A stretch of DNA of 64,000 bases, from NCBI GenBank assembly GCA_016858145.1, contig JAEHOE010000062.1, positions 372,001-436,000 of the forward strand, written 5' to 3'. The notes under the pieces are model-generated. The model saw only the letters and a list, made by a program, of their open reading frames with translations, ran no database searches and was not told the origin of the DNA. Position 1 is the first letter of the stretch. Every line of letters begins with the position of its first letter. The stretch is from Edaphochlamys debaryana (lineage: Eukaryota; Chlorophyta; Chlorophyceae; Chlamydomonadales). A program made the translations under genes and the position numbers. Positions 10,333 to 42,857 of the stretch are shown in pieces.

Positions 10333-10341
10333 TGCGCTCAG
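10333..10341 (-). repeat. Element 1 terminal repeat B2 (9 bp)
   Basis: Sense CTGAGCGCA, the outermost 3' end of element 1. The same 9-mer (B1) lies at 12880-12872, separated from A2 by gc. Confidence 0.75.
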
Positions 10342-11234
10342 CAAGCGGAGCGTCACACCACACGCGTAACTACCAAAATTCCACACTACAAATTTTTTGC
10401 GCGCGCTGTCGCTTGCTGTGATCCTAAGCTACGGGTGATGTGAGACTCGCGCCCTTGGACCGTTAGCTGAGCCTCTAAAGTGCACAGGTGCTATGTAAGG
10501 GGACACAACACGCTGCTTGTCCTGCAGTGCTAAACACGAAGGCAGACGAAGAGGGGGGCTTCGCACTGGCCTTGGATGTGTGGGGTATGAGCGGAAGCGT
10601 TGGGATTACGCGCAGACCTGGGCAAAGGCCTGCAGGGGCACTCAAACAGGTAGTGAAGGGCTGACTGACCTGCGGGCCAAGGAAGGGGGCAAGCAAGGAT
10701 ACACGGAAAGACCTTGCTACCTTTAAACCTTAACGCAAGGGCCGGGCCTCGCTGGCGCTCGGCTCCTTGGGGCTGTGTTGGATTGCTTCTAGGGGCCGGA
10801 CCTATGTGGGTCGGGCTGTGTCTGGCTCTAGCCGAGTACCGAGTGTGGCTGAGCTGTGGGAAGCCGGTGAGTGGCTGCCTTAAAGGGGGCAGACACGGGA
10901 TACTTGGACAGGGCCTGGCTGGCTGACTGTCTGTGTCTTGCTGGGCACAACTGCGTGCACGGGTAGCTAAGCAGGAACTGTGCTGGGCTACTAAGAGTAA
11001 GAGGTCACGGGCCGGATCGGAGGCTGAACTCACACGAACCGGGGAACCTAAAGGATGCGCTAATGCTGCCCTATGCGGAGGCCCGAGCCGGGGGTCTTAA
11101 CCGCCGCTTCGGCTGGGAAGGCCGCTATAAGCCTGGGGGCAGGGGCGAGGCCGAACTCGCGCTGACCTGCAAGGGTTAAGGGGCGGGGCCGGGAAGGCAG
11201 CCGCTGGTGCCGAAGCCTTGGGCACCTTAAACTC

Positions 11235-11360
11235 GGACCCTGCTTGAGAGGGGTCCTTGGACAGGGGGGCTTGGACCCTGCTTGAAAGGGGTTCTTGAAC
11301 AGGGGGGCTTGGACCCTGCTTGAAAGGGGTTCTTGTACAGGGGGGCTTGGACAGGGGAGC
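11235..11360. repeat. 38 bp tandem repeat, about 3.3 copies, in repeat A
   Basis: Units start with GGACCCTGCTTGA at 11235, 11273 and 11311, with a partial unit at 11349. Each unit holds CCCTG ... CAGGG, a small inverted repeat. The same array is at 29554-29679 in the other copy. Confidence 0.85.
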
Positions 11361-11618
11361 GACCACCTGCAAGCACGAGAGGGCGTAACCGGGGCCTGGG
11401 GTTAGCCTAAGCTTCTGCGCTAACGGGGAGACAGGTAGGCTGGCCTACACCTGTGACCCTACTGTGCCTTTGTGTGGAGAAGAGTGTGTAAGGGTGTGTG
11501 TTGTGGTGGGAGAGGAGAGTGGTGGATGGGGGAGAAGGGGGGAGCGTGTGGGTATGGCTGGGGCTGAGGTGAGCTGAGGGGAGCTGGGGGGAAGCGGGGA
11601 AAGAGGGGTGTGTTTTGG

Positions 11619-11623
11619 TTACA
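11619..11623 (-). terminator. TGTAA motif in element 1 repeat A
   Basis: Minus-strand TGTAA about 170 bp past the TATA box, a plausible poly(A) signal giving a short R region. Confidence 0.4.
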
Positions 11624-11787
11624 AGGGCACGGTCGGAAGCTGGGGGTGATCAGTCCTTTGCTTCACCGCTAAGAGCAGAGCTGGATTAGCTTTATAGGAG
11701 AGTGCTTAGGGAGCCTGGGTTTGGATTCTTGGGTTGCTTGGGGGTTTGAGTGTGAACTTGTTATATCGACTATGCGCCGAGGGCGGC

Positions 11788-11795
11788 CTTTTATA
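11788..11795 (-). promoter_or_regulatory. TATA box in element 1 repeat A (distal copy)
   Basis: TATAAAAG on the minus strand, in the coding direction of element 1. The proximal, promoter-side copy is at about 41776-41783. It defines the U3/R boundary near 11765. Confidence 0.6.
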
Positions 11796-12871
11796 CCCCT
11801 CCCGAGGCCGCGATCGGGGTGCCGTACTGCTCCGTTGAGATCCCGGGCCGGCGGGGACTGGACGGACCACCGCTCAAACGCCAGTCTATGTGAATCTGGC
11901 GCCGCAGGGTCCCCCAGGGTGCGAAGGAGTATCGCGTGGCGCAAGCCGGAGGGCGTGGCGGGGTCTGGTGCTCCCAGGCGCCGCCCCCGCCCTTCGCTGG
12001 GCGCTTTCTCCACATAGGAGCACGCTGGCGCCGCGCTGTTTGCTGCTCTGAACGCCTGTCGCATAACGTGAATGCACGGGGGTGGCGGGCTGACACTCGG
12101 GGCTTGGGAGCCCCCGTTCGCCCACGCACCCGGCCTACCTCGGCCGCGCTAAACATCCCTAACGCACCAATTACGCACAGCCTCTATCACATAGCACCCA
12201 GCGGCCAGGGTATGGCGCCTCGCCTACGGCAGGGATGGTTCACAAACGCACCGGGCTCTACCTCATCCTAGCTCAACTCCGCTTTCCTAAACGTTCATCC
12301 TGCACAACTATGCAATACTAAACAAGCTGAAAGAGTTGTCGTGGCGGTACTATCGTCCCGCCCGCCGTGCTTGCCACTCCTCTGATGAATGCTTTGCTGG
12401 CCTGCCCCGCTTCGATTGATGAGTGCGGTAGCTGGGTTCAAGCAATGTGGGGAAAGGGAGATCGGCAGGGCTGGAGACACTTGCGCCATTCGTCGCACTT
12501 GCCAGAAGCCTCGCGCCGGAGGCGCTCGGCCCTCAATCAGCTTGGCTCCAAGTCTTGTCGCCTTGCCCTTACATTTCGGGATAAGCCCTGGCCTTCTCGG
12601 CCCGAGGGCGATGGCGCCTGTCGCAGCCGGCCTCAGCGCTTGCTCCGTCGCGCACCAGCTTCGTCACAAAACAACCAACAAGTCTAGGCGCTCATCTGCC
12701 AGCTAGGCCCCTCCTGACCGCAAGGGGGAGCCTGCGGCGTCCCGGCACGCACCCGCCGGGACCTTCCTCCGTCCCCACGCAAACAGGTGAAGACGTAGGT
12801 GGGCCCCACACAGGTCATGCGCAATGAAGGGGTTTGAACCAACTAGTAAATATCAAGCGGCGGCTTACAGC

Positions 12872-12880
12872 TGCGCTCAG
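12872..12880 (-). repeat. Element 1 internal repeat B1 (9 bp) and gc junction
   Basis: Sense CTGAGCGCA followed by gc (12871-12870) and then the TG start of A2. No polypurine tract is visible in the sense strand just upstream, where an LTR retrotransposon would have one. Confidence 0.7.
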
Positions 12881-13875: not shown

Positions 13876-15567
13876 CTAAACTTCATCCATCGGCGTGCTT
13901 CCGTCGATCAGCTTCCGGGTTTTGGCCTTCTTCTTTATTGCGCTCCTGTGAGTGGTCGGGGAAGCTGTAGAGGGCGCTCGGGAGTTGAGGGGAGCGACGC
14001 GCGAGTCCGTGGCGGGCACGGACTCCCACGCTGCGGCCTCGGGGCTGCGCGCTGCCTCGGCCGGAGGGCCGACGGTAGGGCAGTCCTGTGGGGCCCTGGG
14101 TTCAACATCTGTAGCAGATGCCGGCTTCTTGGCCGTAGGCAGTGGATCGGCGCGGTAGGGTCGTGGGCGCTTGGCCCCATGGGAGGGATTGACAAGGAGG
14201 CGGTGAAGTGCCACGGCAAACCTTTGACCGTCGGCCCCTTGTACCACCGCATAATTGCCTTTGGGAGTGTAGAAGCAATACTTGAACGGTCCTTCCACCT
14301 TACGTTGCATGTTCCTTGCCTTCTCCCGCCTCATGTAGCAAAACTCGCCGGGGCGCAAAGGGGGGCAGCCTGGCAGTTCACCGTCGGCCACCGTCCACGT
14401 ACCTTCTTCTTCCATTGCCTCGGCCGGTGGCGCTTCGCTGGGTTCGAGGGACGCAGTCTCGGGCGTTGGTTTTGCACTAGTGACAGGAGTAGCGTTAGCG
14501 CCTAGGGCGGCGGCGGCAGGGGTCTCTTTAGCCGTCGCGGCCTCTTCAGTTCCCACCGCCTCTCCGGCCGCCCCCTCAGCATCCCTTACCGGTTGGGCGG
14601 CGGGTTCCCGCTTTCCCCCTGCCTTGCGCCGTCGCCCGGTTGTGTGGTGCTGCCGCTTCTCATAGGCTGCCATCTGTTGTGCTTTGGCCTTGTCATTGTT
14701 TGCAAAGATCGTTTCGGCTACCAAATCCATCTGGTCCTTCCGCTGTTGTAGGTGTTCGTAATGCTCCGGCTCCCAATCGATGGGCACCTCGTCTGGGTGG
14801 ATGTCGGGAGCTTCGACGGGGGGCTCGGGTAGGTCCCCGCGTAAGCGCAACTCGCGCCCAAACATGGCTAGAGCTGGGGACACCCTGGTTGAACGGTGGA
14901 CGGCTGCTCGATAGGCCCAAAGCGCACGTTGGCATACCTCGTCCCATCTATCCTCTGCTGCTGCTAGCGTGCGCAATTGGCTTACTATCTGCCCACCCAT
15001 CGCCTCGCAGAGCCCGTTGCCCGTGGGGGCATAAGCAGCTGTACGGCGGTGCACCACGTGATACGTTCGGAGCCCTGAATGGAAGGCGCCGGCAAACTCA
15101 CAGCCTCTGTCGGTCACCAGTTCAGTGGGCACTCCGTACCGTGCGAACCAAGTGTCGTGCAGGGCGCGGAAGACAGTGGTAGCCTGCTTGTTAGGAATGG
15201 GGATGGCCTCAGGCCATTTGGTAAAGGCGTCGATGAGCACTAACAGGAAGACGTTGCCGTTTGGGGTCTTTTTGAACTTGCCTTGTAGGTCCGCATGAAT
15301 GCGGTAGTTGAAGGGTGAATTAGGTAGAGGGCGAAGCACGGTGCGGCGCAACAAGATTTGTCGTTGGGCCGCACATGCCTCACACGATGACACCACTTCA
15401 CGACATATGGGGCGCATGCGCTCAAACCAGTACTGGGCGGCCACCAGGCTCACAGTCTTGTCTATGCCCAGGTGGCCTAGCGCGTGCATCTCTTGTGCTA
15501 TTTTTACGCACTGTTCTGGTGGGGGCACCACACGGGGTCCTTTCTTGCCGTGTCGTATCAGTAGACC
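13876..15567 (-). CDS. Element 1 polyprotein, part 4: DDE integrase
   Basis: Same frame after the third stop. It starts GLLIRHGKKGPRVVPPP, then an H2C2 zinc finger (H-x3-H ... CEACAAQ), then the catalytic core with the first Asp in RIHADLQGKF, the second in ELVTDRGCEFAG and the Glu in TGNGLCEAMGG; 34 residues separate the last two. This is an RVE/DDE fold, not a tyrosine recombinase. The C-terminal part contains GEFCYMRREKARNMQRKVEG followed by PFKYCFYT, an SH3-like DNA-binding tail, and ends with a basic stretch (KKKAKTRK). Stop at 13878-13876. Confidence 0.85.
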   Translation of the reverse strand, partial: GLLIRHGKKGPRVVPPPEQCVKIAQEMHALGHLGIDKTVSLVAAQYWFERMRPICREVVSSCEACAAQRQILLRRTVLRPLPNSPFNYRIHADLQGKFKKTPNGNVFLLVLIDAFTKWPEAIPIPNKQATTVFRALHDTWFARYGVPTELVTDRGCEFAGAFHSGLRTYHVVHRRTAAYAPTGNGLCEAMGGQIVSQLRTLAAAEDRWDEVCQRALWAYRAAVHRSTRVSPALAMFGRELRLRGDLPEPPVEAPDIHPDEVPIDWEPEHYEHLQQRKDQMDLVAETIFANNDKAKAQQMAAYEKRQHHTTGRRRKAGGKREPAAQPVRDAEGAAGEAVGTEEAATAKETPAAAALGANATPVTSAKPTPETASLEPSEAPPAEAMEEEGTWTVADGELPGCPPLRPGEFCYMRREKARNMQRKVEGPFKYCFYTPKGNYAVVQGADGQRFAVALHRLLVNPSHGAKRPRPYRADPLPTAKKPASATDVEPRAPQDCPTVGPPAEAARSPEAAAWESVPATDSRVAPLNSRAPSTASPTTHRSAIKKKAKTRKLIDGSTPMDEV

Positions 15568-16212: not shown

Positions 16213-17907
16213 CTAGTCCAGGTCCAGGCCCAGTGGCGAAGGAGTTCTGGATGTGGGCTTGGGGCCATGTTCAGGCGTGGCTCGCGGTGACTCTCCGCGT
16301 TCCTCATCAGACACCAGATCTATGGGCTGCGCCTCACTTTGGCGTTTGGCAACGTCCCGATAGTTGTTGGGCCAATCAGCAGCGTGCATAGGGCATTGCC
16401 AGTTGCCTGGGGGCACCAGTGGCAGTGCAGGCCGCACACAGGTGGTGTGCCAGCCCTTACCGCAGCCGGGGAAGTCGCAGATCAACATGTTGCGGCTGGG
16501 CATGGGCATAAAGCAAACCTCGCATACTAGCTGCGGGTCTGGATCAGCCTCCTCTATTACTCGCCGTGCTCTTTCCACTTCTTCAAAGTCCGCTAAAAGC
16601 GAGCTGAAACGCCGCACTCTACCAGACGTGCGCACGGCTGGCGGTGGTACTGCAGCGTCGGGCGGCTGTCCTTCTTCCTCATCTTCCTCACTTGCCGTCT
16701 CGGTTTGCTCTGAAGGTGTAGCTGTCAGGTCACTGTCGGAGTCTGCGAGCATGGCGGCCACGCTGGCGGGATTTGGCGGCGGCTGGGAGCCGGAGGGCCC
16801 GGCTCCATCGGCTGCTTGCGGAGCTGAACCGCCAAGGGGTGCGCTTTCCTCATTGCGGCCTAGCGGCGAGCGCGTCCCTGTAGCCGGCGGGGCTGCCACG
16901 GCAAACCTGACCCGTCGCCCATTGGGTGACACAATCCCAGTAGCGCTGATGCCGTCCACCATGTAGACTTCGGCTGACGGGAACGCCTCTGCGTGGGGGG
17001 CACATGCTGGAGTGTCATGGAGCAATGCAAACCAAGCCAGCCCTCCACGGCGCCTTCGTTCCTCCTGGGGAGTCCACATGAAACCTGGGCTGGTGAATGG
17101 CGAGGGCGCCTCGGTATCACTGTCCTCGCCCGGGCTGTCCACTGTGTACACTTCAACATCGCTGGTGGGCCACAGCTCGGCCGCCATGCGGGTGAGAGCA
17201 AAGGGCGAGCTGTCCACTGCGGCTAGCCACACGTCATCATCTGAGTCAGACCCAGGGGGTGGATTTCCTGGGCTGATGGGCTCAGCTGGGGGAGCGGCAT
17301 TGTTGTCCCCCATCAAATCGGCTAGACGGCTCAGGCCATCTGCGTTGGTGTGCTTGTGACCTGGGGAGTACTCCACGGTGAACCTGAACTGGCTCATTTT
17401 GATGGCCATGCGGGTGAGCCTGGAAGACAGGGCTTCTTGTCCCGCTGCGCCAGCGCCCATCACATAGCGCAGACACAAGCTATCGCTCACCAGGACGAAA
17501 GGGTCAGGGGCGTTCAGTAGGTACGCCCTGAAGTGTCGCATGCCCCAACAAGCGGCCAAGACCTCACCCTCGCCTGAAGACATCTTGGCTTCGGTGGGAG
17601 AGCATCGTCGGGATGCGTACTGTATGACATAAAGTTTGCCGTTCTTGGGATCCTTCTGCTGAAGGATGGCGGACATAGCCTCCGCAGAGTAGTCGGTTGC
17701 CAAATAAAACGGCATGCCTTCTTTGAAGGAGTGACTTCGCAGGATGGGCCAGCTTGTGAGGGCCGCTCGCAGCGTCTCAAAGCTGGATTGTTGCTCAGGA
17801 CCCCACTCCCATGGTGCGTCCTTGCGGAGCAGACGTATCATGGGGGAGGCGATGCTGCTGTAGCCCTTAATCCAGCTACGGTAGAATGACGTAAGGCCCA
17901 ACCAACT
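16213..17907 (-). CDS. Element 1 polyprotein, part 2: RNase H and PHD finger
   Basis: Same reading frame as part 1, directly after its TAA. It begins SWLGLTSFYRSWIKGYS, the normal Gypsy RT-RNase H connection, so the TAA sits inside a conserved motif. RNase H follows with FYLATDYSAEAMSAILQQ, SSGEGEVLAACWGMRHFRAY and HTNADGLSRL. After an acidic, Ser-rich linker comes a C4HC3 PHD finger at about 16562-16392 (CEVCFMPMPSRNMLICDF ... GWHTTCVRPAL ... NWQCPMH). PHD fingers bind histone H3 tails, so a role in choosing chromatin targets is a reasonable guess. Ends at TAG 16215-16213. Confidence 0.8.
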   Translation of the reverse strand, partial: SWLGLTSFYRSWIKGYSSIASPMIRLLRKDAPWEWGPEQQSSFETLRAALTSWPILRSHSFKEGMPFYLATDYSAEAMSAILQQKDPKNGKLYVIQYASRRCSPTEAKMSSGEGEVLAACWGMRHFRAYLLNAPDPFVLVSDSLCLRYVMGAGAAGQEALSSRLTRMAIKMSQFRFTVEYSPGHKHTNADGLSRLADLMGDNNAAPPAEPISPGNPPPGSDSDDDVWLAAVDSSPFALTRMAAELWPTSDVEVYTVDSPGEDSDTEAPSPFTSPGFMWTPQEERRRRGGLAWFALLHDTPACAPHAEAFPSAEVYMVDGISATGIVSPNGRRVRFAVAAPPATGTRSPLGRNEESAPLGGSAPQAADGAGPSGSQPPPNPASVAAMLADSDSDLTATPSEQTETASEEDEEEGQPPDAAVPPPAVRTSGRVRRFSSLLADFEEVERARRVIEEADPDPQLVCEVCFMPMPSRNMLICDFPGCGKGWHTTCVRPALPLVPPGNWQCPMHAADWPNNYRDVAKRQSEAQPIDLVSDEERGESPRATPEHGPKPTSRTPSPLGLDLD

Positions 17908-20900
17908 TTACACATGTCGCCTGGTGCGGGGAGCAGGGAAGGCAGCAATCGTGGCGACATGCTTGGGGTCCAGGGTAACCGTACCATTGCTAAAGTCGAT
18001 GGAAAAGCCCAGCCATCGCAGGTAGGTGTAGCCGTACTTGCCCTTGGATGCTGACATTCGTATGCCACACAACCTAAACAATTCTATGATGCGTTCTAAC
18101 GCACCCAAATGGCTGTCGTGATCCTTCTCCACCAGTAAGGCATCATCTAGCCAAGTACTGACATTACGTGATGTCTTGCTGCTGTACGGCGGGGCGCCGG
18201 TGGCAATCAATCTCTCGTTCACTTCCGCTTCTGTTGAATGCCCCTCGGCCCCGTCGGGCACTCTTGACACTCCGTTCACCAGCACCGGGGCTAAAGCTTT
18301 GGCCAAGAGGGACACAAAGCAGGCTGGTGCTATCGAAAGCCCCATGGGCATTCGCTTGAAACGCCAGCAGCCGCTGGTGGTATGGAATGCTGTTCGGTCC
18401 CGGCTGGCCGTGTCCTCAATTGGGATGGCGAAGAATCCTAACCTTATGTCCAAACTGCCCACCACCCGCTTTTTGCTGGGCGGGGGCAGCACTTGGTCTA
18501 GCACCTCTCGCATCACGCCCACGGGAAACCGCATAGGCTTTACCAACTGGTTTAAAGCCCGGAAATCGGCCACAAGGCGGGGTGGTTTGCCTGGGGCGCG
18601 GACGCAAAACACAGGGCTGCTCCACGGTGATTCGGCGGGCTCAATGATATCTGCCTTAAGCAGCTCTTGAATGGCTTCGTTGAGGGTAGCTTTGTCCGTG
18701 TAGGACAAGCGGTGAGGGGGGCGAAACACAGGCTTGGCGTCACCTGTGTCGATGGTGAGGGTTTGCCATGTGGTTCGTCCCAGCTCAAGGGAATTTCGTG
18801 CAAACATGTCAAAATGCTTGTACAGCAGGGCATATATCCTTTCCCATTGCGCTGGCTCTAATTCGGGGTTGATGCAACCGGCAAGCAGCTGGGCCATCTC
18901 CTCATCTGGATGTTGGTGGGAGCGCAGCGCAATCGATTGTTCAGAGAAGGTGCGTGCCCTTTCCACATGTTCGGCAGGGGTCAAGAACTCGATCTCGGAG
19001 TACGGTGGTGGCTCGAGAGGAGGTTTGACCACGATGGGCGTTGCTCCGCACGAGGGAAAACGTCTCCTGTCTCTCTCGCGGGGAGGCTTGGGCGCCACAG
19101 GTTGGGGCTCCTCTACTAGTTCATCCGGGGGAAAAGGTCCAAACCCGCCGGTGCCCATGACACACACATCGGCCAGGGCAGACATGGCGGGGTTGCTATC
19201 ACTCCACAATTCTACATGCACCCGCCGCCCTTGGCAGTCAGTGTAGTGCAACCTGTTTTGGTGAAGGTCTATGCTGGCGCGAACGGCGTGCAACCAGTCC
19301 AGGCCTAAGATAAGGTCAGAGGCGAGCCGTCGGGCCACATACATTGTGACGTCCACTGATCGTCCCGGTAGGCGCACCTTCAAGGTGGTCTGGCCGGAAA
19401 CATCGATGGGATGCCCTGACGCATTGTTCAATGGGCGTGTCACGGGCAGAATAGGGTTGCGGTGGCGCAAGCGACGCAAGGTGCCTGTGGTGACGACGGA
19501 CACTCGTGCTGCGCTGTCCACCACCGCGGGCCACACTGCTCCGGGCGGTAGGCTGCCAAATCCCACCCATACGTTGGGTACATCATGCCACACCTCACTA
19601 TCGGCCCGCGGCACGGGGGTAGGTGGTAAAGATGGCGGTTGTCGGGCTAGCCAGCGATGCATTTGCATGACCCGCGACGTGGGGTCTCCTGGCGACGGGG
19701 TGGTCGCTGGTGTAAGGGGCCAAGACATCCGGCTTGAATAGTCCAGCCTGGCCGAGGGTAGACCCACCGCCAGAGCTCCTGGCTGGCGCTGGGCGGCCCT
19801 GCGAACCTTCCGTCGTCCTTCTTCCTTCTCGGGCTCCTCCGGCTGGGCCGTGTCGTTTGGGGCCAAGGACGGAACGAACGGGGTCGGGGCCGGCCTTGGC
19901 GACTGGCGCGCCTCCACAGGGCGCAGCTCCGGGCCATAGGGACGAGGAGTAGGGCGCGGAAAGGTGGGAGCTTCGGAAGGCGGCGAGGCGGGGTTGATAA
20001 CCCTTGCCGTTCGTCCTCGCGCCCCTGCCTCCCGCCACCTATCGCCTAAGTCATCACTAGTGACTGTGGGGACCGCATGGGCAAAAGGCACTGGCTGACC
20101 CCGCACTGGCAAGTTTGGGGCTCGCCCGGCGGCGTTGCTAGGCGCTCGCTCCTCCAATTCACGCCTCGAATCCTGGGAGGAGGACGAGAATAGCAAGCGC
20201 TCACGCAAGTACCTGGCCGGATCTAACTCTGAATGTGGCCGTCCTGGGGCCGCGGCGCATCCGCCGTCCTCCTCGTTCTCACTGCTGGGAATGGGAGAGT
20301 TACTCAGAGGCTGAGTTAGCGGGCCGGACTCGCTCCAGGAAGGGTCAGTCCATCCTTGTCCGTCGGGTGTTAGCATGGAAACATCTGCGCTGTCTGGGAT
20401 CGACGCGGATGTTACGTGCACGTTGCTAAGGCGCAGCAAGGCTTCAGCCACCTCGCCTTCGCACGCCGTGGCTTCCATGTCGGCTGGACCCAATGAGAGG
20501 GTTATTCCAGCACTGGCGTCTTGGGGAAACTCTGACACTGGGGGAGTGAGGGGTAACACGTTGAAACTGACCGGGGTTGACCCACTCGGCCCAGCTTGGG
20601 GTGGCGATGTCATGGTTCCACCTCCGGGGGTACCGGCTGAGGGCACCATCACAACTCGTGGCAAGTTCGGCATCGCCATGAGCAGAGCACGCTTGGCTAT
20701 CGTCATGGCCGTATCCGCCGCCTTCCGGTGGGCGTGGATCTTCGAAATCTTGCGGCGGTTGTGCTCCGAAGATGTGTCATAAGGGCCGCCTTCCATTAAA
20801 AGACGGTACACAGCTTCACAGTCGGCAGCTCTGGAAGCTGTGCGCTGCAACACTTCCCACTCCAGTTTTCCCTGGAGGTACTTCTCTGCCCATTCGCGCT

Positions 20901-29704: not shown

Positions 29705-30249
29705 TGTCAGGCACTGGCATGTCACCGTGCCTGGAAGGTATCCGGGAGGGGTACCCGGAGGCCGTGTCGGGAAATGCATGGAGAAGTCGCGGGAAGTCGA
29801 AGGGTCGGCGGACGCAGGTAGGCGCCGCACGAACCCAATTGCACCACGGGGGATTTCGTTAGCAGACTTGCTCGCCGCAGCCGGTGGAGCGGCGTCGAGG
29901 CTTAGTGGCGTAATGTGGTAGGGTGAGCAATCATCGGTGGACAGAGTGTCGTACGATCGGGGATAGCGGGGTAATGGGCGCGGGGACAGCCGCCATCGGC
30001 GTCTGTTCCCAAGCTCTCTGGTACTGCTTGCCGGTGTTGCTTACGTAGTGGACAGACCAAGCCGTTATTGCTGAGCACGCAGCTAGGAGAGCTGCGTAGC
30101 TGCTGTAAGGAGTTGAGTGCGCTCCTGCCGAATTTGCCATCGACCGTCGATCCGCCAGTAAGCTGAGCGTGCGAGGGGGCGATAGGCCCAGATCTACGTG
30201 TCAGAGGACGTCAGCAAGGGCGTGCCTGCTGGACGTCGCCGTCTTCCCA
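29705..30249 (+). repeat. Element 2 repeat A1
   Basis: 545 bp, begins TGTCAGGCACTGG and ends CGTCTTCCCA; matches A2 at offset 11068 with no difference seen. Holds TGTAA at 30104-30108. No TATA box recognised. Confidence 0.9.
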
Positions 30250-30252
30250 GCT

Positions 30253-30264
30253 TGGGAACAGACC
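30253..30264 (+). other. Possible primer binding site of element 2
   Basis: TGGGAACAGACC starts three bases after A1 and could pair with a tRNA ending GGTCTGTTCCCA. Weaker than the site in element 1 because of the offset. Confidence 0.3.
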
Positions 30265-31564: not shown

Positions 31565-32145
31565 CTGGTTCAAGTTGTTAAGTCCCACTGGATCCAATCG
31601 AGCCTCTCCCGTTCCTGACGCCTCTTCCGACGCCTCATCCTCAGCGCTCAACGTCGCAGCGTGGGTCAGGGGGGGTCGAGGGTCTGCAGCCAACGGGATC
31701 TAAGGAGGGGTCCATTCAGGGCAGTCAGCACAGGGCCGGACAGACCCGGTCGGGTGCTAGCTTTCGCCCGGCGCCGTCAGTCCAACAGCCGGGTGCAGCA
31801 GACAGAGAGGGGATCGGTGAGGAGGTTTCGTCCATAGACGGGCTGAACAAGCAGCTAGCCGGGCTTCACGAGCAACTGCTGCAGCGGGAGGCGCGCGGCG
31901 CAGCGGCAGCAGCAGAGGGAAGCGGAGAGGGGCAGGCCCTTGACCAAGGGCACGGCGAGGCCGAGGCAGAAGACAGTGGGGAGACGGAGCAGTTCGTGTT
32001 GCAGCCTGCACTAAACGCGCTTGCTGCCGGAGCTGCTGCCCTCGTCACCGTCCCCCAGGTGCCAGCGCCGCCACAACCAGGTCAAGGCCAGCGGCAGCAG
32101 GCACCGGTCAGGCCACGGCCTGCAGCAACCAGCGGGTGGGACGAG

Positions 32146-35100: not shown

Positions 35101-38100
35101 GCTCCGCCGGGCATGAGCCTGGCCTACGGGGTCGACACGGGCCAAGGCCCGTACAACACCTTGGGGCTTCCCGCCAGCCTGGCGCATGCGCTGGCCAGTG
35201 CCGAGACGTTCACGTTTGATGGACGAATGGCAGCCACCGCTCACGAGCGGTACGAGAAGGACAAGGAGGGAGGTTGGATCTGGGGCAACGCCAAGGGCTT
35301 GACCCCCGAGCAGATGCAAGCGCTGCAAGCAGCGGTGCGGGCGCGCAAGGATGCGTTTGCCTATAGCACTTCCGAGATGCCGGGCTACTGTGGCGAGCTG
35401 GGACCTTTCCGGATCGAACTTACGACTAACGAACCGATTGTACAGCCCCGCCGCCGTTTTAGTCCGAAAGAAACCGAGCTGATCGAGACCCTAACCGCCG
35501 AGCTGATCAACTCCAACCTCGCCGAGGAGTGGACCGGCCCAACACAGGTGGCGGTCAACCCCGTTATAGCAGCCAAGCGCTGCGAGGCGACAGGACTGTG
35601 GACGAGCGCTCGGATGGCGCAGGATTACCGCCCTGTAAACAGCAGGAGCAAGCCAGACAAGTACGGGCTGCATCGGCCGGAGGAGATCTTTCAGAAGATG
35701 GCCAAGGCCCGGTTTTTCTCCAAGTTGGACATGCGTCAGGGGTTCTTGCAGATCCCTATGCACCCTGACGACATAGGCAAAACTGCCTTCTGGTGTGGGA
35801 ACCGTCTGGTGGCGTACAAACGGATGCCGTACGGCGTTCGCAACGGTAGCAGTGCCTTCCAGCGACGTGTCGACCTGGCGCTGACTAAAGCTGGGCTGGA
35901 CAGATGGGCCACCGGTTTTATTGATGACGTCGTGATCGGGACGGAGACTGCAGAGGAGCACGTGAGAGTTGTTGGGGCGGTGCTGGATTGCTTGCGGGAC
36001 GTGGGGCTACGGGCCCACCCCGACAAGTCCATCTTCGGGGCAGAGGTGGTCGAGTACCTGGGCCACAACCTTTCCCCCTTCGGCATTTCGCCTCATCATG
36101 CCAAGGTTGCGGCGATCCAGGCCCTGCAGCCTCCTCGCAACGTGTCTGAGCTGCGTACTCAGTTGGGTTTCGTGAATTACTATAGGTGTTACGTGCCCAA
36201 CATGAGCTCTATCGTGGCACCGCTAAATGACCTGCTCAAGAGCGGGGTGCCATGGAGCTGGGGGCCTGAGCAAGCTGCGGCCCACAGCAAGATCAAGGAG
36301 ATATTCACGCAACCTGATTTGGTGTTGAAGCACATTGATTACTCACGTCAGTTGGTTTTGCACACCGATTTCTCTAACCGTGGCATAGCCGCCGTGCTGG
36401 GCCAGGTGGGGGCAGACGGGAGAGAGTACATGTGCGCGTGCATAAGTCGTTCCCTGAACAAGCACGAGGCAAACTATGCTTCGTACAAGGGGGAGATGTT
36501 AGCGGTCGTGTGGGCTGTTAAGATGTTTCGACACCACCTGATTGGCACGGACGTTCCCTTCAAGATCGTGACAGACCACCGCCCGCTGCTTTACTTGATG
36601 AGTTCTGAGGGCCTCACGGGGCAGTATGCGCGCTTTGCGCTGGTGTTGCAAGAGTATAATTTTGTTGTTGAGCATCGTGCGGGCGCCAAGCACCAAAATG
36701 CGGACGGGCTGTCACGCAACCCCCGAGCAAGCTCGGAGGACGTGTCAGGCGCCAGACTGGACGAGGAGGATGAGCCAGGCGGGTTTGCGGGAACCACGCC
36801 GGCCCACTCTGGAGTGGTGAACTCAAGCGCTACGGCGTGTGAGGTGCTCAACGTGGCGCTTGCTACCGCGGCTAAGGCCGCGCCCTTCATAGACGCCTAC
36901 GCGCCTGACTCAAGTGGGGCGTTGGACGGATGGAACGGTTGGGCGTTTGAGGCCAGGATTCCCCCGCCGAAGGATGAGGTGGAGGAGGTCCGGGCTGAGC
37001 GCAGCAAGCTGCGGAATGATGCGCTGGAGTGGCGGGCGGCACGCAAGAGGAGGCTGCGGCAGGATGGTGCACCAACCACCGCGCCGCCGACCCCTGCGCC
37101 CGCCATGCTTCAGGCGGCACGGTGGCACGACTCTGCCATGCGCCAAGGCGCGGTCGTCGCCGAGCTTTACGGAGGGCTGGCGCCAGGGCTTGAGGCGTGT
37201 CTGCGGGCGGGGCTGCCTGTGCAGCGCTACGTGTACGCTGACTCCTCAGCACCCGCACATGGGGCGGTGCTGGCCCGCCTGCCTGAGCTGGCGCGGCTGC
37301 ACCCGGACCTGTTCACCGCCACGGCGGCGGGGCAGGCGCTGTTGCTGTTGAACGATGATGTGAGCAAGCTCACAACCCCGAGGCTGCTAGCCTCAGTGCC
37401 AGACGGGGCGCCGCTGCTTGTTGTGGCGTTCTGGGCGCGGGGTGACACGACGGCTCAAGAGGCCGTGCTGAGGCTGGTGGGCGGGGCGCAGCAGGCGCTG
37501 GGCGCCGATAGGGTGGCCTTCCTGTGCGGCACCACGGCTGCGTCAGGGCCCACCCCGCCTGTCGAGCAGCGGAACTCGGAGAGCAGGCTGCATGAGGCGT
37601 GGGGTTCCCCGCTGGTGGCGGACTCGGCCCTCTTCGGCTCGGGCGTGCACCAGGTGTACCGGTTCTGGACGAACCTCTCCGAGCCGTGCGGCCTGCGAGA
37701 GACCATAGCGTCGGCAGTCAGGCCGGCGCGCTTCAGCGCACAAGATGCAATCGGCCAAGGCCGACGGATGGCGGCGGCGCGCCGCAACCTGCGGCCGCCG
37801 TACTACCCTTCCGAGAGTGAGGGACAGCCCGCACGGGCTGTCCTGGCGGGCGCGATAGGCGCCAACCTGGAGGCGCTTGAGGCAACAAGCGCATGCCCAG
37901 TGTACGATGTCGAGAAGCAAAAGTTCACCCCGCCAACGCCGGACGAGTGTGAGCTGCTCAAGGGCTTCTCACCCGGCGTTACGGCAAGCCTGCCTGAGGC
38001 GGAGCGGCGAGCCCTGCTGGCGGCGGCCGCTGACGTCACCTGCCTGGCGGGCGTGCTAAGTATGGCGCGGGTGTTGGCGGATGATGTGCCACAGGCACTT

Positions 38101-40617
38101 CCGGCGCAAGCGCCAGCCGCGCTGGTGGCGTCAGCATCAGGCGCGTCAGACGGCGTGGCGGCGGCGTTCGCTTGCGGCTGGGCCCCGGACGCCAGCCCCT
38201 TGTGCGTCCTGGCGAGCGGCGCCCTGGACAGCGAGTCACCGCCAGCGTCAGCGCCGTACGGCGACATTTGGGACGATGATGCAACCTTGGAGTTCGTTAA
38301 GACAGGACAGATGCCCACGGGCATGAGTGAGGGCGAGCAAGCTCGCATCCGCAAGCGCGCCCACCGCTACAGGTGGCTTGCGGGCAAGCTGCACACCGTG
38401 TCGCTCGATGGCAAGACCCGCATAGTGCCACCGCCCGCCGAGCGAGGCGAGCTGGTGCGCAGGGTGCACGAGCAGACAGGGCACTGGGGCGTGAGGCGCA
38501 CCTTGGCGCTGCTGCTTCACAGCTACTGGTGGCGCGGCATCAAGGAAGACACGGCCACGGCCGTCAAGCACTGCGCCGCATGCGACAAGCTGCGGGCACA
38601 GTTTAGCGGCAGGCCCGGCGTGCTGAACCCTCTTCCCATCGGGGGCCTGTTCTACCGCTGGGGCGTGGACCTGTGCGGCCCCTTCAACAAGACCGTGCAC
38701 GGCAACCGCTACTGCATGGTGTGCGTGGAACACTTCAGCAAGTACGTTATTCTGATTCCGATTCCCAGCAAGGAGGCGGCGGTCACGGCCTTCGCCTTTT
38801 CGCATCACGTGCTGGGGCGCTACGGCGCATGTGCCGAGGTGTGCTCGGACCAAGGCGGCGAGTGGAAGGGGCAGTTCGCCGCGCTGTTGGCCGAGGCGCT
38901 GATTGACCACAGGCAGACCTCAGCCGAGCACCCCCAGGCCAACGGGCTGAGCGAGCGAGCTGTTCAGAGCTGCAAGTCGGCCCTGACCAAGCTCGCCCAA
39001 GCGGCAGGCGGTCTCAACGACTGGGACGAGCGCCTGCCTGCCATCATGTTGGGCTACAACTGCTCAACGCAGGCAGCCACCAAGCTCTGCCCGTACACTC
39101 TGATTCACGCAGTGGACCCTGTGATTCCCCCGGCTGTCAAACCAAGGTTTGAGACGGAGCTGAGCCTGGATGACCCCGAGGCGGCGGCACGCTCCGTGCT
39201 CTCAAGGGCAGCCGCCATGCGGCGCCACATGGCCATCGCTGGGGGCAACCTGACGGTGGCGCAGCATCGTGACATGCTGCGTTACGCCCGCCTACGAGGC
39301 GGAGGGCTCGAGCCCAAGCTGCGCAAGTTTGAGATAGGAGATTATGTGTATTACCGCAACACGACAGCCAAGACAAGTCTTGACCCGCAAGTGCGCCCCG
39401 AGGTGCTGCGAGTTGCGGAGGTCAGGGCCTCAGGCGTGCTGGTACTGGAGGGCAAGTGCGGCACAGTAGTGACCGCACACGTCACGCACGTGGCCCCATG
39501 CCACATGCCGATCGTGGATCCGGAGATCGATCCAAGGCTGGCCAGGCCGCCACTCACGCTCGCCTGCGAGGTATGCTCCATGCCGGATGCGGAGGAGTGG
39601 ATGCTGCTGTGCGACGCGTGCGGCACGGGCTGGCACACGTACTGCCTGAGCCCCGCGCTCGAGGCGATTCCTGACGGCAATTGGGTCTGCCCGCGCTGCT
39701 CAAGCAAGGGTGTGACGGTGGGCCAAGTCGCCGCCAAGGCGGCGGAGCGGCGGACCAAGGCTGAGCCGCCACCCCACCTGAAGAAGCTCCAAGGAGCGTT
39801 GGCGATGCGGCAGGGCAAGGGCCGCAAGGCAAGGAACAAGCGAGAGACTGGCATAGTAAGCTACGCTGGCACGCGCAGGCGCGTGCATCACTTTCTTATC
39901 GAGTACGGCAAGGGCGACTCCGAACTGGTGACGCTAACGCAGCTCAGGCCGCGTCTGCTCAAGCCGGGCGAGTCCAAGGCCGCGGCTGCCACGGGCAGCA
40001 CCGCAGGAGCGGCCAACCAGACCGACTCGGCGGGAGCAGCCGGCAAGCTGGCGGCGGCCATGCCAGGAAAGCACCATCCCGCCAAGGCGGGAAGGTTGGC
40101 GGAGCTGGCGCGCAGCGGAGGCGCCGGGGCGCCGCAGGCCACGGAGGCTGAGTGCAAGGCCCTGGCGGACGTAATCGACGTGGGGCTGGCGCTGACCGTC
40201 TATGCCCCATGGGGCACCACGCCGGAGGCGGCTGCATGGCTGCGCGCGCAGGGCTGCGCACTGCGGCGCGGCCCAACCGCCGCAGGCCCAAGGGTCTGCG
40301 AACACCATGCGCTGGAGCAAGCAAAGAAGAACGGGATTGATATGGGGTTTATCTGGATGGAGAGCGCGCCCGAGGTGATCGACGCCTGCATGGGCGGGGC
40401 AGCCGAGCAGGCGAGAGAGGCGGTAGTGGCGAGGTGCTCCTGGGAGTACCTGCAGGAGAGCGACGGGGCGCGACTGGGATGGCTGAGAGCCAGGATTGCG
40501 GAAGGCCGACTGGTGGTCGTGCCATGCGTGACGTGTGTCTGGATCGTGCTGATGGCGGCCGGAGCGAGGCGCCTGGGCTTTCTGCGCTCGGAGGGCATTC
40601 AGCCCGTGATTGTGTGA
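32146..40617 (+). CDS. Element 2 gag-pol polyprotein with methyltransferase-like domain, DDE integrase and PHD finger
   Basis: First ATG is at 32146 (2823 residues), but the frame is open and protein-like from 31585, so translation may start earlier. Order by position: gag-like capsid 32200-32780; CHHC knuckle near 32900; CCHC knuckle CDECGRWHGRIC near 33180; Gly-rich linker; retropepsin-like domain with DHSASISLI near 34180; basic stretch and one hydrophobic, membrane-like segment 34950-35040; reverse transcriptase 35390-36180 with FIDDVVIG; RNase H 36290-36720; a cytosine-methyltransferase-like domain 37130-38090; H2C2 zinc finger near 38470-38580; DDE integrase core with GVDLCGPF, CSDQGGEW and GLSERAVQ; C4HC3 PHD finger 39560-39705; a C-terminal domain I do not recognise, to TGA at 40615-40617. 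No internal stop. It copies and integrates the element; the extra domains probably act on chromatin or DNA methylation. Confidence 0.88.
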   Translation: MDDDYPSRSSDEERRRQRMEPFRFSSVPDFTSYGDRELTKVRRQGNWDLDKIPVAEVEYMLDKIPISESEFEHWHNSRKSTLVAKATAWLQAKPGNAAANLHGKALWEYYCDAVRTHFEPERKANYRLAYEKLKQTMEMSPSSYLAQARRYEPYLDIGKTTFARNYFNRLIPEVRNDLGPIWRRVPETDWYGKLDEMAVDANNYWDNLRFAQAAAATEEGAAGGSKAGKPAGGAKAPAVAQPAAPAKQGRFFCTVHGANSSHPTERCRQIKSGRPALVTGAAESVSALVKQIEQLQAALVSAQAPPPATKWQAEQQKRQGAGGSSGGGGNRAGGGTASRPAGVNKCDECGRWHGRICFIQNPEFAPRNYAPPPGPLKDKFDRNLAEYEKRRGGGGGGGGAGGGGGTQQAAAVTSLQEQLAQVSKALAALATTTTNQHAAAATAADAGAEDEYDEELYDSEAHAAAVHAADTEEFSASSRATCALAAAHALATLKQQPAPIGFQVAAIPQQRYEAPPERASPAPKGAAPSGEPTARLQLVLDLDSTVSLGASSSLSALQEEVCSKLQCAAAQGSAVLASAKARPGGGGAQVYVHRNEAGPAYCVTHPAKAYTSIFNMSDQEREQLLEGNAEAKAYFEENPYMFYYEPGAILIRRKGGGGGHGSGGGGDGEASCAPDSLRDHSASISLITEEMVQRHGLPVRRTKATLRTGNGPSKLAHELSHEELELVLLPGTPHAVTMPLTQTLVVPSTHLFDYLAGNKQMRMLCDFVTQYPTPQLHFKPDVLRAPNQIITIPMRNAHGVRQALAAGYGLGATALCTSSAAPCFTELGGGFEAQTEQSEGDNGGFELEFTASYFQQLKSYTMATAGVALGYTAAAASRVAKATGIDTSLRKLAAAVETSMDRTEEEWAEPAKAKRHGKRKRKGPDKTPVLMGRKRSWAGSLTFMLTALVLLSLAAGAGATGAAFNGAAAVEAMQQLNMVSAALCAAPPGMSLAYGVDTGQGPYNTLGLPASLAHALASAETFTFDGRMAATAHERYEKDKEGGWIWGNAKGLTPEQMQALQAAVRARKDAFAYSTSEMPGYCGELGPFRIELTTNEPIVQPRRRFSPKETELIETLTAELINSNLAEEWTGPTQVAVNPVIAAKRCEATGLWTSARMAQDYRPVNSRSKPDKYGLHRPEEIFQKMAKARFFSKLDMRQGFLQIPMHPDDIGKTAFWCGNRLVAYKRMPYGVRNGSSAFQRRVDLALTKAGLDRWATGFIDDVVIGTETAEEHVRVVGAVLDCLRDVGLRAHPDKSIFGAEVVEYLGHNLSPFGISPHHAKVAAIQALQPPRNVSELRTQLGFVNYYRCYVPNMSSIVAPLNDLLKSGVPWSWGPEQAAAHSKIKEIFTQPDLVLKHIDYSRQLVLHTDFSNRGIAAVLGQVGADGREYMCACISRSLNKHEANYASYKGEMLAVVWAVKMFRHHLIGTDVPFKIVTDHRPLLYLMSSEGLTGQYARFALVLQEYNFVVEHRAGAKHQNADGLSRNPRASSEDVSGARLDEEDEPGGFAGTTPAHSGVVNSSATACEVLNVALATAAKAAPFIDAYAPDSSGALDGWNGWAFEARIPPPKDEVEEVRAERSKLRNDALEWRAARKRRLRQDGAPTTAPPTPAPAMLQAARWHDSAMRQGAVVAELYGGLAPGLEACLRAGLPVQRYVYADSSAPAHGAVLARLPELARLHPDLFTATAAGQALLLLNDDVSKLTTPRLLASVPDGAPLLVVAFWARGDTTAQEAVLRLVGGAQQALGADRVAFLCGTTAASGPTPPVEQRNSESRLHEAWGSPLVADSALFGSGVHQVYRFWTNLSEPCGLRETIASAVRPARFSAQDAIGQGRRMAAARRNLRPPYYPSESEGQPARAVLAGAIGANLEALEATSACPVYDVEKQKFTPPTPDECELLKGFSPGVTASLPEAERRALLAAAADVTCLAGVLSMARVLADDVPQALPAQAPAALVASASGASDGVAAAFACGWAPDASPLCVLASGALDSESPPASAPYGDIWDDDATLEFVKTGQMPTGMSEGEQARIRKRAHRYRWLAGKLHTVSLDGKTRIVPPPAERGELVRRVHEQTGHWGVRRTLALLLHSYWWRGIKEDTATAVKHCAACDKLRAQFSGRPGVLNPLPIGGLFYRWGVDLCGPFNKTVHGNRYCMVCVEHFSKYVILIPIPSKEAAVTAFAFSHHVLGRYGACAEVCSDQGGEWKGQFAALLAEALIDHRQTSAEHPQANGLSERAVQSCKSALTKLAQAAGGLNDWDERLPAIMLGYNCSTQAATKLCPYTLIHAVDPVIPPAVKPRFETELSLDDPEAAARSVLSRAAAMRRHMAIAGGNLTVAQHRDMLRYARLRGGGLEPKLRKFEIGDYVYYRNTTAKTSLDPQVRPEVLRVAEVRASGVLVLEGKCGTVVTAHVTHVAPCHMPIVDPEIDPRLARPPLTLACEVCSMPDAEEWMLLCDACGTGWHTYCLSPALEAIPDGNWVCPRCSSKGVTVGQVAAKAAERRTKAEPPPHLKKLQGALAMRQGKGRKARNKRETGIVSYAGTRRRVHHFLIEYGKGDSELVTLTQLRPRLLKPGESKAAAATGSTAGAANQTDSAGAAGKLAAAMPGKHHPAKAGRLAELARSGGAGAPQATEAECKALADVIDVGLALTVYAPWGTTPEAAAWLRAQGCALRRGPTAAGPRVCEHHALEQAKKNGIDMGFIWMESAPEVIDACMGGAAEQAREAVVARCSWEYLQESDGARLGWLRARIAEGRLVVVPCVTCVWIVLMAAGARRLGFLRSEGIQPVIV

Positions 40618-40719
40618 GAGTTTGAGCTTTCTTTTCGGGATTCTTTAGCCTTTGCCACTTGCTTTATCTAAACCCGCGCTCCAGCCCACGGCAGCGTCGC
40701 CGCCGGAGCTGGGGGGGGG
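40618..40719 (+). other. Element 2 short 3' noncoding stretch with G9 run
   Basis: 102 bp from stop codon to B1, ending GGAGCTGGGGGGGGG. The purine run lies where a polypurine tract would prime plus-strand synthesis, but it abuts B1 instead of the A repeat. Confidence 0.5.
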
Positions 40720-40770
40720 ACCGTTTGCTAGGGACATCATGGGGTCAATAGGACACGCTGGGTCGTGACA
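40720..40770 (+). repeat. Element 2 repeat B1 (51 bp)
   Basis: Starts ACCGTTTGCTAGGGAC, ends GGGTCGTGACA. It follows a run of nine G (40711-40719), a polypurine-tract-like sequence, and is joined to A2 by gc. Confidence 0.9.
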
Positions 40771-40772
40771 GC

Positions 40773-41317
40773 TGTCAGGCACTGGCATGTCACCGTGCCT
40801 GGAAGGTATCCGGGAGGGGTACCCGGAGGCCGTGTCGGGAAATGCATGGAGAAGTCGCGGGAAGTCGAAGGGTCGGCGGACGCAGGTAGGCGCCGCACGA
40901 ACCCAATTGCACCACGGGGGATTTCGTTAGCAGACTTGCTCGCCGCAGCCGGTGGAGCGGCGTCGAGGCTTAGTGGCGTAATGTGGTAGGGTGAGCAATC
41001 ATCGGTGGACAGAGTGTCGTACGATCGGGGATAGCGGGGTAATGGGCGCGGGGACAGCCGCCATCGGCGTCTGTTCCCAAGCTCTCTGGTACTGCTTGCC
41101 GGTGTTGCTTACGTAGTGGACAGACCAAGCCGTTATTGCTGAGCACGCAGCTAGGAGAGCTGCGTAGCTGCTGTAAGGAGTTGAGTGCGCTCCTGCCGAA
41201 TTTGCCATCGACCGTCGATCCGCCAGTAAGCTGAGCGTGCGAGGGGGCGATAGGCCCAGATCTACGTGTCAGAGGACGTCAGCAAGGGCGTGCCTGCTGG
41301 ACGTCGCCGTCTTCCCA
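40773..41317 (+). repeat. Element 2 repeat A2
   Basis: Second 545 bp copy. Contains TGTAA at 41172-41176, a plausible poly(A) signal for the element transcript. Preceded by B1 and gc, followed by t and B2. Confidence 0.9.
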
Positions 41318-41318
41318 T

Positions 41319-41369
41319 ACCGTTTGCTAGGGACATCATGGGGTCAATAGGACACGCTGGGTCGTGACA
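41319..41369 (+). repeat. Element 2 repeat B2 (51 bp), right terminus
   Basis: Identical to B1 by eye. Forms the CA end of the element before the GGCG duplication. Confidence 0.9.
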
Positions 41370-41373
41370 GGCG
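41370..41373. repeat. Target-site duplication GGCG, right of element 2
   Basis: Partner of 29701-29704. Confidence 0.85.
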
Positions 41374-42857
41374 TAACCGGGGCCTGGGGTTAGCCTAAGC
41401 TTCTGCGCTAACGGGGAGACAGGTAGGCTGGCCTACACCTGTGACCCTACTGTGCCTTTGTGTGGAGAAGAGTGTGTAAGGGTGTGTGTTGTGGTGGGAG
41501 AGGAGAGTGGTGGATGGGGGAGAAGGGGGGAGCGTGTGGGTATGGCTGGGGCTGAGGTGAGCTGAGGGGAGCTGGGGGGAAGCGGGGAAAGAGGGGTGTG
41601 TTTTGGTTACAAGGGCACGGTCGGAAGCTGGGGGTGATCAGTCCTTTGCTTCACCGCTAAGAGCAGAGCTGGATTAGCTTTATAGGAGAGTGCTTAGGGA
41701 GCCTGGGTTTGGATTCTTGGGTTGCTTGGGGGTTTGAGTGTGAACTTGTTATATCGACTATGCGCCGAGGGCGGCCTTTTATACCCCTCCCGAGGCCGCG
41801 ATCGGGGTGCCGTACTGCTCCGTTGAGATCCCGGGCCGGCGGGGACTGGACGGACCACCGCTCAAACGCCAGTCTATGTGAATCTGGCGCCGCAGGGTCC
41901 CCCAGGGTGCGAAGGAGTATCGCGTGGCGCAAGCCGGAGGGCGTGGCGGGGTCTGGTGCTCCCAGGCGCCGCCCCCGCCCTTCGCTGGGCGCTTTCTCCA
42001 CATAGGAGCACGCTGGCGCCGCGCTGTTTGCTGCTCTGAACGCCTGTCGCATAACGTGAATGCACGGGGGTGGCGGGCTGACACTCGGGGCTTGGGAGCC
42101 CCCGTTCGCCCACGCACCCGGCCTACCTCGGCCGCGCTAAACATCCCTAACGCACCAATTACGCACAGCCTCTATCACATAGCACCCAGCGGCCAGGGTA
42201 TGGCGCCTCGCCTACGGCAGGGATGGTTCACAAACGCACCGGGCTCTACCTCATCCTAGCTCAACTCCGCTTTCCTAAACGTTCATCCTGCACAACTATG
42301 CAATACTAAACAAGCTGAAAGAGTTGTCGTGGCGGTACTATCGTCCCGCCCGCCGTGCTTGCCACTCCTCTGATGAATGCTTTGCTGGCCTGCCCCGCTT
42401 CGATTGATGAGTGCGGTAGCTGGGTTCAAGCAATGTGGGGAAAGGGAGATCGGCAGGGCTGGAGACACTTGCGCCATTCGTCGCACTTGCCAGAAGCCTC
42501 GCGCCGGAGGCGCTCGGCCCTCAATCAGCTTGGCTCCAAGTCTTGTCGCCTTGCCCTTACATTTCGGGATGAGCCCTGGCCTTCTCGGCCCGAGGGCGAT
42601 GGCGCCTGTCGCAGCCGGCCTCAGCGCTTGCTCCGTCGCGCACCAGCTTCGTCACAAAACAACCAACAAGTCTAGGCGCTCATCTGCCAGCTAGGCCCCT
42701 CCTGACCGCAAGGGGGAGCCTGCGGCGTCCCGGCACGCACCCGCCGGGACCTTCCTCCGTCCCCACGCAAACAGGTGAAGACGTAGGTGGGCCCCACACA
42801 GGTCATGCGCAATGAAGGGGTTTGAACCAACTAGTAAATATCAAGCGGCGGCTTACA
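41374..42857 (-). repeat. Element 1 repeat A, proximal (5') copy, U3 side with TATA
   Basis: Matches 11386-12869 at offset 29988 with no gaps and one mismatch seen. It holds the TATA box at about 41776-41783. Transcription towards the element 1 ORF would now have to cross all of element 2. Confidence 0.9.

Follow-up and report, generated by a model that had tools for sequence, protein, structure and literature searches.

Split direct repeats in Ty3/Gypsy-type elements of Edaphochlamys debaryana and a possible origin from end-joined circular DNA

Two nested elements and their proteins

The DNA considered here is a stretch of 64,000 nucleotides from the green alga Edaphochlamys debaryana (contig JAEHOE010000062.1, positions 372,001 to 436,000 of the forward strand), referred to below as the window and numbered from its first letter. 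It holds two retrotransposons, element 1 and, nested within it, element 2, whose ends are built as A1-ORF-B1-gc-A2-B2, that is, with two directly repeated sequences (A and B), split around the open reading frames (ORFs) and separated at the right end by a gc dinucleotide. A sequence-only reading of the window had drawn attention to this layout; here we describe both elements, compare them with other copies in the genome, and consider how such ends could be produced.

Element 1 runs from 42857 to 10333 on the minus strand and comprises, in that direction, A1, ORFs for gag-protease-reverse transcriptase (RT), RNase H and integrase, B1, gc, A2, and B2. Its A1 is split by element 2 into a 5' part (41374..42857) and a 3' part (28661..29704) and is followed by an 18-nt primer-binding site complementary to the 3' end of tRNA-Met(CAT) (28643..28660). 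The coding region consists of an ORF for gag, aspartyl protease, and RT (17908..28470), an ORF for RNase H and a PHD finger (16213..17907), and an ORF for an H2C2 plus DDE integrase (13876..15567). Beyond it lie B1 (CTGAGCGCA, 9 bp; 12872..12880), the gc spacer (12870..12871, in the context CA-GC-TG), an unbroken A2 of 2528 bp (10342..12869), and B2 (9 bp; 10333..10341). The target-site duplication (TSD), TGAG on the plus strand, occupies 42858..42861 on the 5' side and 10329..10332 on the 3' side. All the terminal parts that the sequence-only reading had assigned to this element, including the 9-bp B and the TGAG duplication, were thus recovered, and A1 and A2, compared piecewise, differ at one of 2528 positions. 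The LTR (long terminal repeat) of element 1 also holds a 38-bp tandem repeat (window 11194-11390 and 29513-29709). In the ORF at 17908-28470 (minus strand), about 2550 residues separate the protease match, which ends at residue 746, from the RT match, which starts at residue 3298, and this stretch gave no further Pfam match at E 0.001.

Element 2 (29705-41369, plus strand) is inserted inside the A1 of element 1 and consists of A1, an ORF, nine G residues, B1, gc, A2, an extra T, and B2, flanked by the TSD GGCG on the left (29701..29704) and on the right (41370..41373). Its A1 (545 bp; 29705..30249) begins with TGTCAGG, ends with CTTCCCA, and contains a self-primer sequence, GTCTGTTCCCAAGC (30001..30014), at which the 5' end of the RNA is predicted to lie; the primer-binding site GCTTGGGAACAGAC (30250..30263), the complement of this self-primer, follows immediately 3' of A1. 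A polyprotein ORF of 3011 amino acids (31582..40617) encodes RT, RNase H, H2C2 plus DDE integrase, and a PHD finger. A polypurine tract (PPT) of nine G residues (40711..40719) abuts B1 (51 bp, last bases GTGACA; 40720..40770), and the gc spacer (40771..40772) between the CA of B1 and the TG of A2 marks the proposed integrase cleavage site, CA^GC^TG. A2 (545 bp; 40773..41317) and B2 (51 bp; 41319..41369) match A1 and B1, respectively, without any difference, and between them stands a single extra T (41318), the putative join of the cDNA ends. The sequence-only reading had the layout, the 51-bp B, and the GGCG duplication right but missed this extra base, and the A2/B2 join it overlooked is the informative place. 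Repeats of 545 and 51 bp that are identical, and of 2528 bp with one difference, all recurring in other copies, are not due to chance.

A Pfam scan at E 0.001 over four ORFs of elements 1 and 2 identified RT (RVT_1), RNase H, Integrase_H2C2, and rve, in that order, in both elements (the rve match of element 2, at E 5e-6, falls under Pfam's own cut-off), and no tyrosine recombinase domain in any of the four. These results agree with the earlier claim that both polyproteins carry H2C2 and DDE integrase modules without a tyrosine recombinase. Among chains of the Protein Data Bank (PDB), the best sequence match of the element 2 integrase is the integrase of prototype foamy virus (PFV; E 2.6e-19), with Ty3 at E 1e-14. 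Judged by their encoded domains, the elements are Ty3/Gypsy rather than DIRS/PAT. Their termini combine features of both groups: the two equal TG...CA LTRs of Ty3/Gypsy elements are absent, the left end having A only and the right end B1-gc-A2-B2, and the short TSD of fixed length is present (4 bp); of the DIRS/PAT hallmarks, the split direct repeats (A1-ORF-B1-A2-B2) are present, and neither a tyrosine recombinase nor a lack of TSDs was observed.

Other copies in the genome

A search for copies in the E. debaryana genome gave 69 candidates, the best 40 of which were scored and listed; these 40 A copies comprise 28 from autonomous elements of the element 2 family and 12 from a shorter, non-autonomous relative. 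Among the 28 are 11 left ends, 11 right ends, three units of a tandem array on C87, and three solo copies, while the 12 divide into six left and six right ends. Left ends of the element 2 family read flank, A, primer site, and right ends read B1-gc-A-B2. An ordinary LTR (B-gc-A) was found at none of the 11 autonomous left ends, nor at a left end among all 40 A copies listed, and B1-gc precedes A2 in 11 of 11 autonomous right ends, with B1 shortened in one. The copies listed therefore show neither of the two arrangements at odds with the sequence-only reading, namely A and B together as ordinary LTRs at both ends, or a missing B1. Nothing was found to favour ordinary two-LTR Gypsy elements that merely look split, whether through later loss of B from the left LTR or through an error of assembly; the comparison refutes this, as the same structure recurs on many contigs, in different flanks and in different families, and we assign this explanation practically no weight.

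The four flanking bases agree in 15 of 15 left/right pairs of element 2 type (C16 included) and in three of four pairs of the element 1 family (TGAG, CAAG, and CCCT). These duplications bear on the explanation in which a tyrosine recombinase of DIRS/PAT type, acting in cis or supplied by another element, makes the insertions and the split repeats are simply the PAT signature. The A1-B1-A2-B2 layout is indeed the split direct repeat arrangement known in Ngaro, PAT, and VIPER elements (PMC6681497; PMC3266345), and PAT-like families are present in these algae (PMC3266345; PMC8226300; articles are cited throughout for the parts of their text that were covered). DIRS1-like integration, however, is said to yield no target-site duplication (PMC3266345), and the 15 matching pairs largely refute a recombinase of this kind; in addition, the recombinase domain was found in neither element, and the imprecise A2|B2 join described below is unlike site-specific recombination. 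With no recombinase found and TSDs present, membership in DIRS/PAT is rejected, and a recombinase contributed from elsewhere is very improbable. The combination singled out by the sequence-only reading, in which split repeats occur with a DDE integrase and a 4-bp TSD and no tyrosine recombinase is found, is thus real.

Within the element 1 family, the pattern CTGAGCGCAGCTGT occurs at 15 places, eight of which were fetched and correspond to three element 1 copies (C2, C8, and C62) and five others. One unfetched match, C191:49002, lies where the B1-gc-A2 of the C191 copy should be. The pattern CGGMCGCCAGCTGT, directed at other element 1-like families, occurs at 16 places, and an LTR context was seen in none of the 10 fetched.

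Several further arrangements were noted among the copies. The shorter family (C63, C29, C154, C179, C37, C16, C141, C138, C79, and C55; L085-L096 and L105-L109) has about 4 kb between its A copies; in the copies listed, A positions 297-545, from the predicted RNA start onward, are 99-100% identical to element 2, and B is its own. This family may use the enzymes of element 2. At C87:256811-278276 (L014, L015, L016, and L103) at least three B1-gc-A-primer-site units stand in tandem, and the RT match of two units spans only query positions 292-441; unequal crossing-over or insertion of a multimer could have produced this array. The three solo copies have the form flank-A-B-flank, and two of them lie in near-identical flanks. 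All three (L013, L035, and L036; two independent) retain primer-site sequence between A and B, exactly 14 nt in the C19 copy and about the same in the C191 pair, and they may be inserted strong-stop DNA circles rather than recombination products. A copy at C57:23469-35274 (L033, L101, and L102) ends in PPT-B-CA, lacks A2-B2 at its right end, has AGGG on both sides, and looks chimeric, with parts from the non-autonomous and the autonomous family.

cDNA borders, two junctions, and a proposed route of integration

A primer site follows the left repeat in both elements, and the start of the RNA can be predicted from the sequence. In Tf1-type self-priming, the primer site pairs with a stretch inside the LTR. 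The 14 nt after the A1 of element 2, GCTTGGGAACAGAC, are a perfect complement of A positions 297-310, and self-priming through this match would fix CTTCCCA as the exact right end of the cDNA; the 12 nt that follow A1 in the C10:544800 family are likewise complementary to a 12-nt stretch at A position 235. A tRNA primer was also sought for element 2, but the one match had no tRNA at its site, and the self-primer was adopted instead. The 18-nt primer site of element 1 matches the 3' end of tRNA-Met(CAT). A pattern for the 3' end of initiator-type tRNA-Met gave 11 matches in the genome, and ARAGORN called three tRNA-Met(CAT) genes at the two loci fetched from these (L099 and L100); a general tRNA T-loop pattern was discarded, its one match having no tRNA at the site. 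Six of the initiator-type 3' end matches lie at C206:70384-106331, four of them spaced about 2.57 kb apart. At the other border, the C10 and C18 families, like the element 2 group, have a G run directly 5' of B1, and this run appears to mark the left end of the cDNA. Given these primer-site and G-run borders, the LTRs of the cDNA would be B-gc-A, and A2|B2 would be the place where its right and left ends meet.

The two junctions of the right end behave differently. We compared 23 right ends from the element 2 family, its non-autonomous relative (with five more added), and a diverged copy on C1, calling the end of A at CTTCCCA and the start of B at ACCG or ACTG. At the B1-gc-A2 junction, GC stands between GTGACA and TGTC in all 23, and 22 have the whole of B1 behind a G run, the C149 copy lacking the start of B1. 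The A2|B2 join, by contrast, takes 12 distinct forms: it is exact in four right ends, shares or loses one A in seven, has one base added in four, has the last A replaced or lost together with one added base in another four, and in one retains two nucleotides (GC) of the primer site; B2 is shortened in two (by 12 and 22 nt) and A2 by 5 nt in one. Both copies with a shortened B2 have a full B1, and in C3 and C41 a variant is common to B1 and B2, which indicates that B2 derives from the same element. In the C87 array, the last B2 directly follows a break in the ORF region, with three bases (ACC) common to the intact start of B, again like a joining of DNA ends. From this pattern, it looks as though A2|B2 is made anew at each insertion by the joining of two DNA ends and B1-gc-A2 is copied; an LTR-LTR join with the marks of end joining is seen in the element 2 group only.

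The spacer is GC, which is self-complementary, in all seven families with a readable B1-A2 junction (element 1, its C230/C119 relative, element 2, the non-autonomous relative, the C1 copy, C10, and C18; family 4, C108, and C14 are outside this count, their junctions not being readable). The suggestion of the sequence-only reading that the ends are rebuilt from a circle-junction-like B1-A2 template is retained in part: B1 can be the source of B2, but B1-gc-A2 is not a frozen circle junction. Rather, it would be a constant, proposed integrase site carried by the RNA, and the join of the cDNA ends would be A2|B2. The integrase site appears to have moved inside the LTR in these Ty3/Gypsy elements.

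These observations can be combined into a route that we consider probable, in which the cDNA ends are joined first and integrase then cuts the internal CA^GC^TG. The RNA would start within A1 and run through the primer site, ORF, PPT, B1, and gc into A2, and ordinary reverse transcription would convert it into a linear cDNA with two identical B-gc-A LTRs, whose left and right ends would be set by the PPT and the primer site, respectively. At neither end would this cDNA have the TG...CA-type terminus of the inserted element. Host end joining would ligate the two ends into a 2-LTR circle with a variable A|B junction and the order internal region-B-gc-A-(join)-B-gc-A-primer site-internal region, and integrase would cut both strands after CA at the B-gc-A site adjoining the join. 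With a 2-bp spacer, one staggered cut would give two CA-OH ends with 2-nt 5' overhangs, the product of normal 3' processing, and strand transfer with a 4-bp duplication would leave A1-internal region-B1-gc-A2-B2. The two ends would see one and the same dinucleotide only if the spacer is self-complementary, as GC is. The architecture, the primer and PPT borders of the element 2 group, the constant B1-gc-A2, the variable A2|B2, and the TSDs are read directly from the DNA; from them we infer the start of the RNA, the joining of a circle before cleavage, the order of that circle, and the cleavage by the enzyme. The proposed cut has parallels: PFV integrase cleaves each strand of its own 2-LTR junction behind CA, with a 5' AT overhang of 2 nt as the result (PMC1180852), and HIV-1 integrase, as a tetramer, cuts its palindromic junction (PMC1905944). 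The C57 copy, which reads PPT-B-CA|AGGG and has AGGG before its TG end, is what a 1-LTR circle cut at the same site is expected to give, although it is one supporting case rather than a class and a four-base match alone can be chance.

Several observations weigh against this route. Of the two identical B-gc-A sites in a 2-LTR circle, only the one adjacent to the join appears to be used: the 28 autonomous and 12 non-autonomous A copies listed include no alternative left end, A|J|B-gc-A, and neither do 14 right ends from the element 1 group. Integrase may sense the nearby A end or the junction, or may act before joining, while a DNA end is close by. A single base separates many of the 23 junctions from the exact form, and such a change alone could be mutation. 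Right ends in the element 1 group show a precise A|B join throughout (14 of 14, not all independent, as L051 and L054 share flanks), no polypurine tract was recognised before B1 in element 1 and its relatives, and the flanks of the C2 pair differ (GAAG versus GGCT). Since the element 1 join is precise and no PPT was seen there, the case for end joining comes from the element 2 group, and for element 1 such joining is presumed.

The use of a single site is accounted for by a different order of events, in which integrase, loaded near the left end of the linear cDNA, cuts B^gc^A about 51 bp in and retains the short B piece as one of the two ends it holds, the TG-A and B-CA ends are inserted, and the host then links the free end of B with the cDNA's right end. 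Only the site close to the cDNA end would then be used, as in the 28 and 12 A copies listed; the variable A2|B2 join is explained equally well, and the B length of 50-51 bp in five families is in keeping with such a cut. The element 1 group, however, has a B of only 9 bp, short for a separately held duplex; a chromosomal double-strand break would be left at each insertion; and the A-internal region-B product on C57 is simpler as a 1-LTR circle. We regard this order as a serious rival, albeit rather an unlikely one, and it shares its basis, the internal integrase site and the joined cDNA ends, with the circle-first route.

The joined ends could also arise during reverse transcription, if RT jumped from the right end of its template to the left end, copied B with stray bases, and integrase then cut the resulting tandem. 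An RT that jumps between templates can insert bases without a template and make use of short overlaps, and many of the 23 junctions, as well as the three-base overlap on C87, are of this kind; a tandem array of B1-gc-A-primer-site units does exist on C87. That array is explained equally well by unequal crossing-over between A copies, and the truncations of B2 (12 and 22 nt) and A2 (5 nt), together with the C87 join, where an internal break meets a B start that is intact, resemble DNA-end joining. A template jump therefore seems decidedly improbable, and the joining of cDNA ends into a circle before cleavage remains our preferred account.

Distribution and relation to known systems

Elements 1 and 2 are only 22% identical in RT and 33% in integrase, so that the plan is common to distant Gypsy lineages. 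The single lineage envisaged by the sequence-only reading is not borne out, given these distant RTs, the differing primer sites, and two further families that share the plan. A search of the genome for RT listed at least 96 matches (95 of 377 candidates scored), mostly from a group about 45% identical to element 2. The C10:544800 family, with an RT 45% identical to element 2, has an A of 440 bp, a B of 50 bp, and the TSD CGCG, and at C18:420304 the right end is B1-gc-A2-B2. A split right end was not seen in the C108 window, and the C14 window contains a B-like end after the coding sequence and no A2. In family 4 (C188), the repeat matches over 899 bp only, and in the C230 family A starts with TA, not TG. 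Outside E. debaryana, proteins related to element 2 were found, among the best 120 of 278 matches, in Chlamydomonas reinhardtii (75%), Tetrabaena (68%), Pleodorina (64%), Haematococcus (51%), and Monoraphidium (47%), all of them compared at the level of protein; six peptide patterns detected no relatives in the viral and genome contig sets. Several of the related polyproteins (e.g., P0027, P0028, and P0039) carry a DNA C5-methylase domain (PF00145) and a PHD finger. A broader proposal, which we put forward tentatively and hold at somewhat less than even, is that several deep green-algal Gypsy lineages integrate as a rule from end-joined circular cDNA through a built-in CA-GC-TG, split repeats being the mark of integration from a circle whichever recombinase is used and the DIRS/PAT likeness being convergent.

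Whether circular DNA can be a true precursor for integrase has long been disputed: 2-LTR circles have been called a dead end, with integrase cleavage cited alongside (PMC5314604), and the enzyme data for PFV and HIV-1 speak in favour. The integrated copies described here carry the record expected of such a precursor, a variable join of cDNA ends beside an untouched proposed integrase site, and because this record lies inside each insertion, the question becomes testable by sequencing. In practical terms, elements of this kind could be missed or misjoined by LTR finders built to seek a pair of equal LTRs, and split repeats by themselves do not prove that a tyrosine recombinase is at work. No account of a DDE integrase combined with split repeats turned up in the literature searched, the scope of which did not include REM1 and Repbase, so prior notice is possible; the algal genome paper lists Gypsy and PAT-like elements, and such ends are not described in the parts of it covered (PMC8226300).

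In comparison with known systems, the elements resemble Ty3/Gypsy (Metaviridae) in the gag-protease-RT-RNase H-H2C2/DDE integrase order of element 1, in their 4-bp duplications, in the primer site after the left repeat, and, for the element 2 group, in the PPT before the right repeat; they differ in having no equal LTRs and in that the ends used by integrase would be set back, by 51 bp (or 9 bp) and the gc, from the border of the LTR defined by reverse transcription. With PAT-like, TOC, and Ngaro elements of the DIRS order they share the A1-ORF-B1-A2-B2 layout, and they are set apart from these by the DDE integrase, with no tyrosine recombinase found, the 4-bp TSDs, the gc spacer, and the variable A2|B2. 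As in Tf1/sushi elements, the primer site is complementary to a stretch of the LTR (14 nt in element 2, 12 nt in the C10:544800 family), which would follow from priming by the 5' end of the RNA, whereas Tf1 has two ordinary LTRs. The copy-out-paste-in circles of IS911 and IS3 likewise bring a DDE enzyme to abutted ends with a short spacer, as proposed here, but these are bacterial DNA transposons with no RNA step. Closest in chemistry is the cleavage of the 2-LTR palindrome by PFV and HIV-1 integrases (PMC1180852; PMC1905944), which cut both strands after CA, as would happen here; PFV leaves a 2-nt AT overhang (PMC1180852), and the overhang predicted here is GC. Retroviral integrases cut at the very place where the two LTRs meet, whereas in the algal elements a fixed site would lie inside each LTR and the join is variable.

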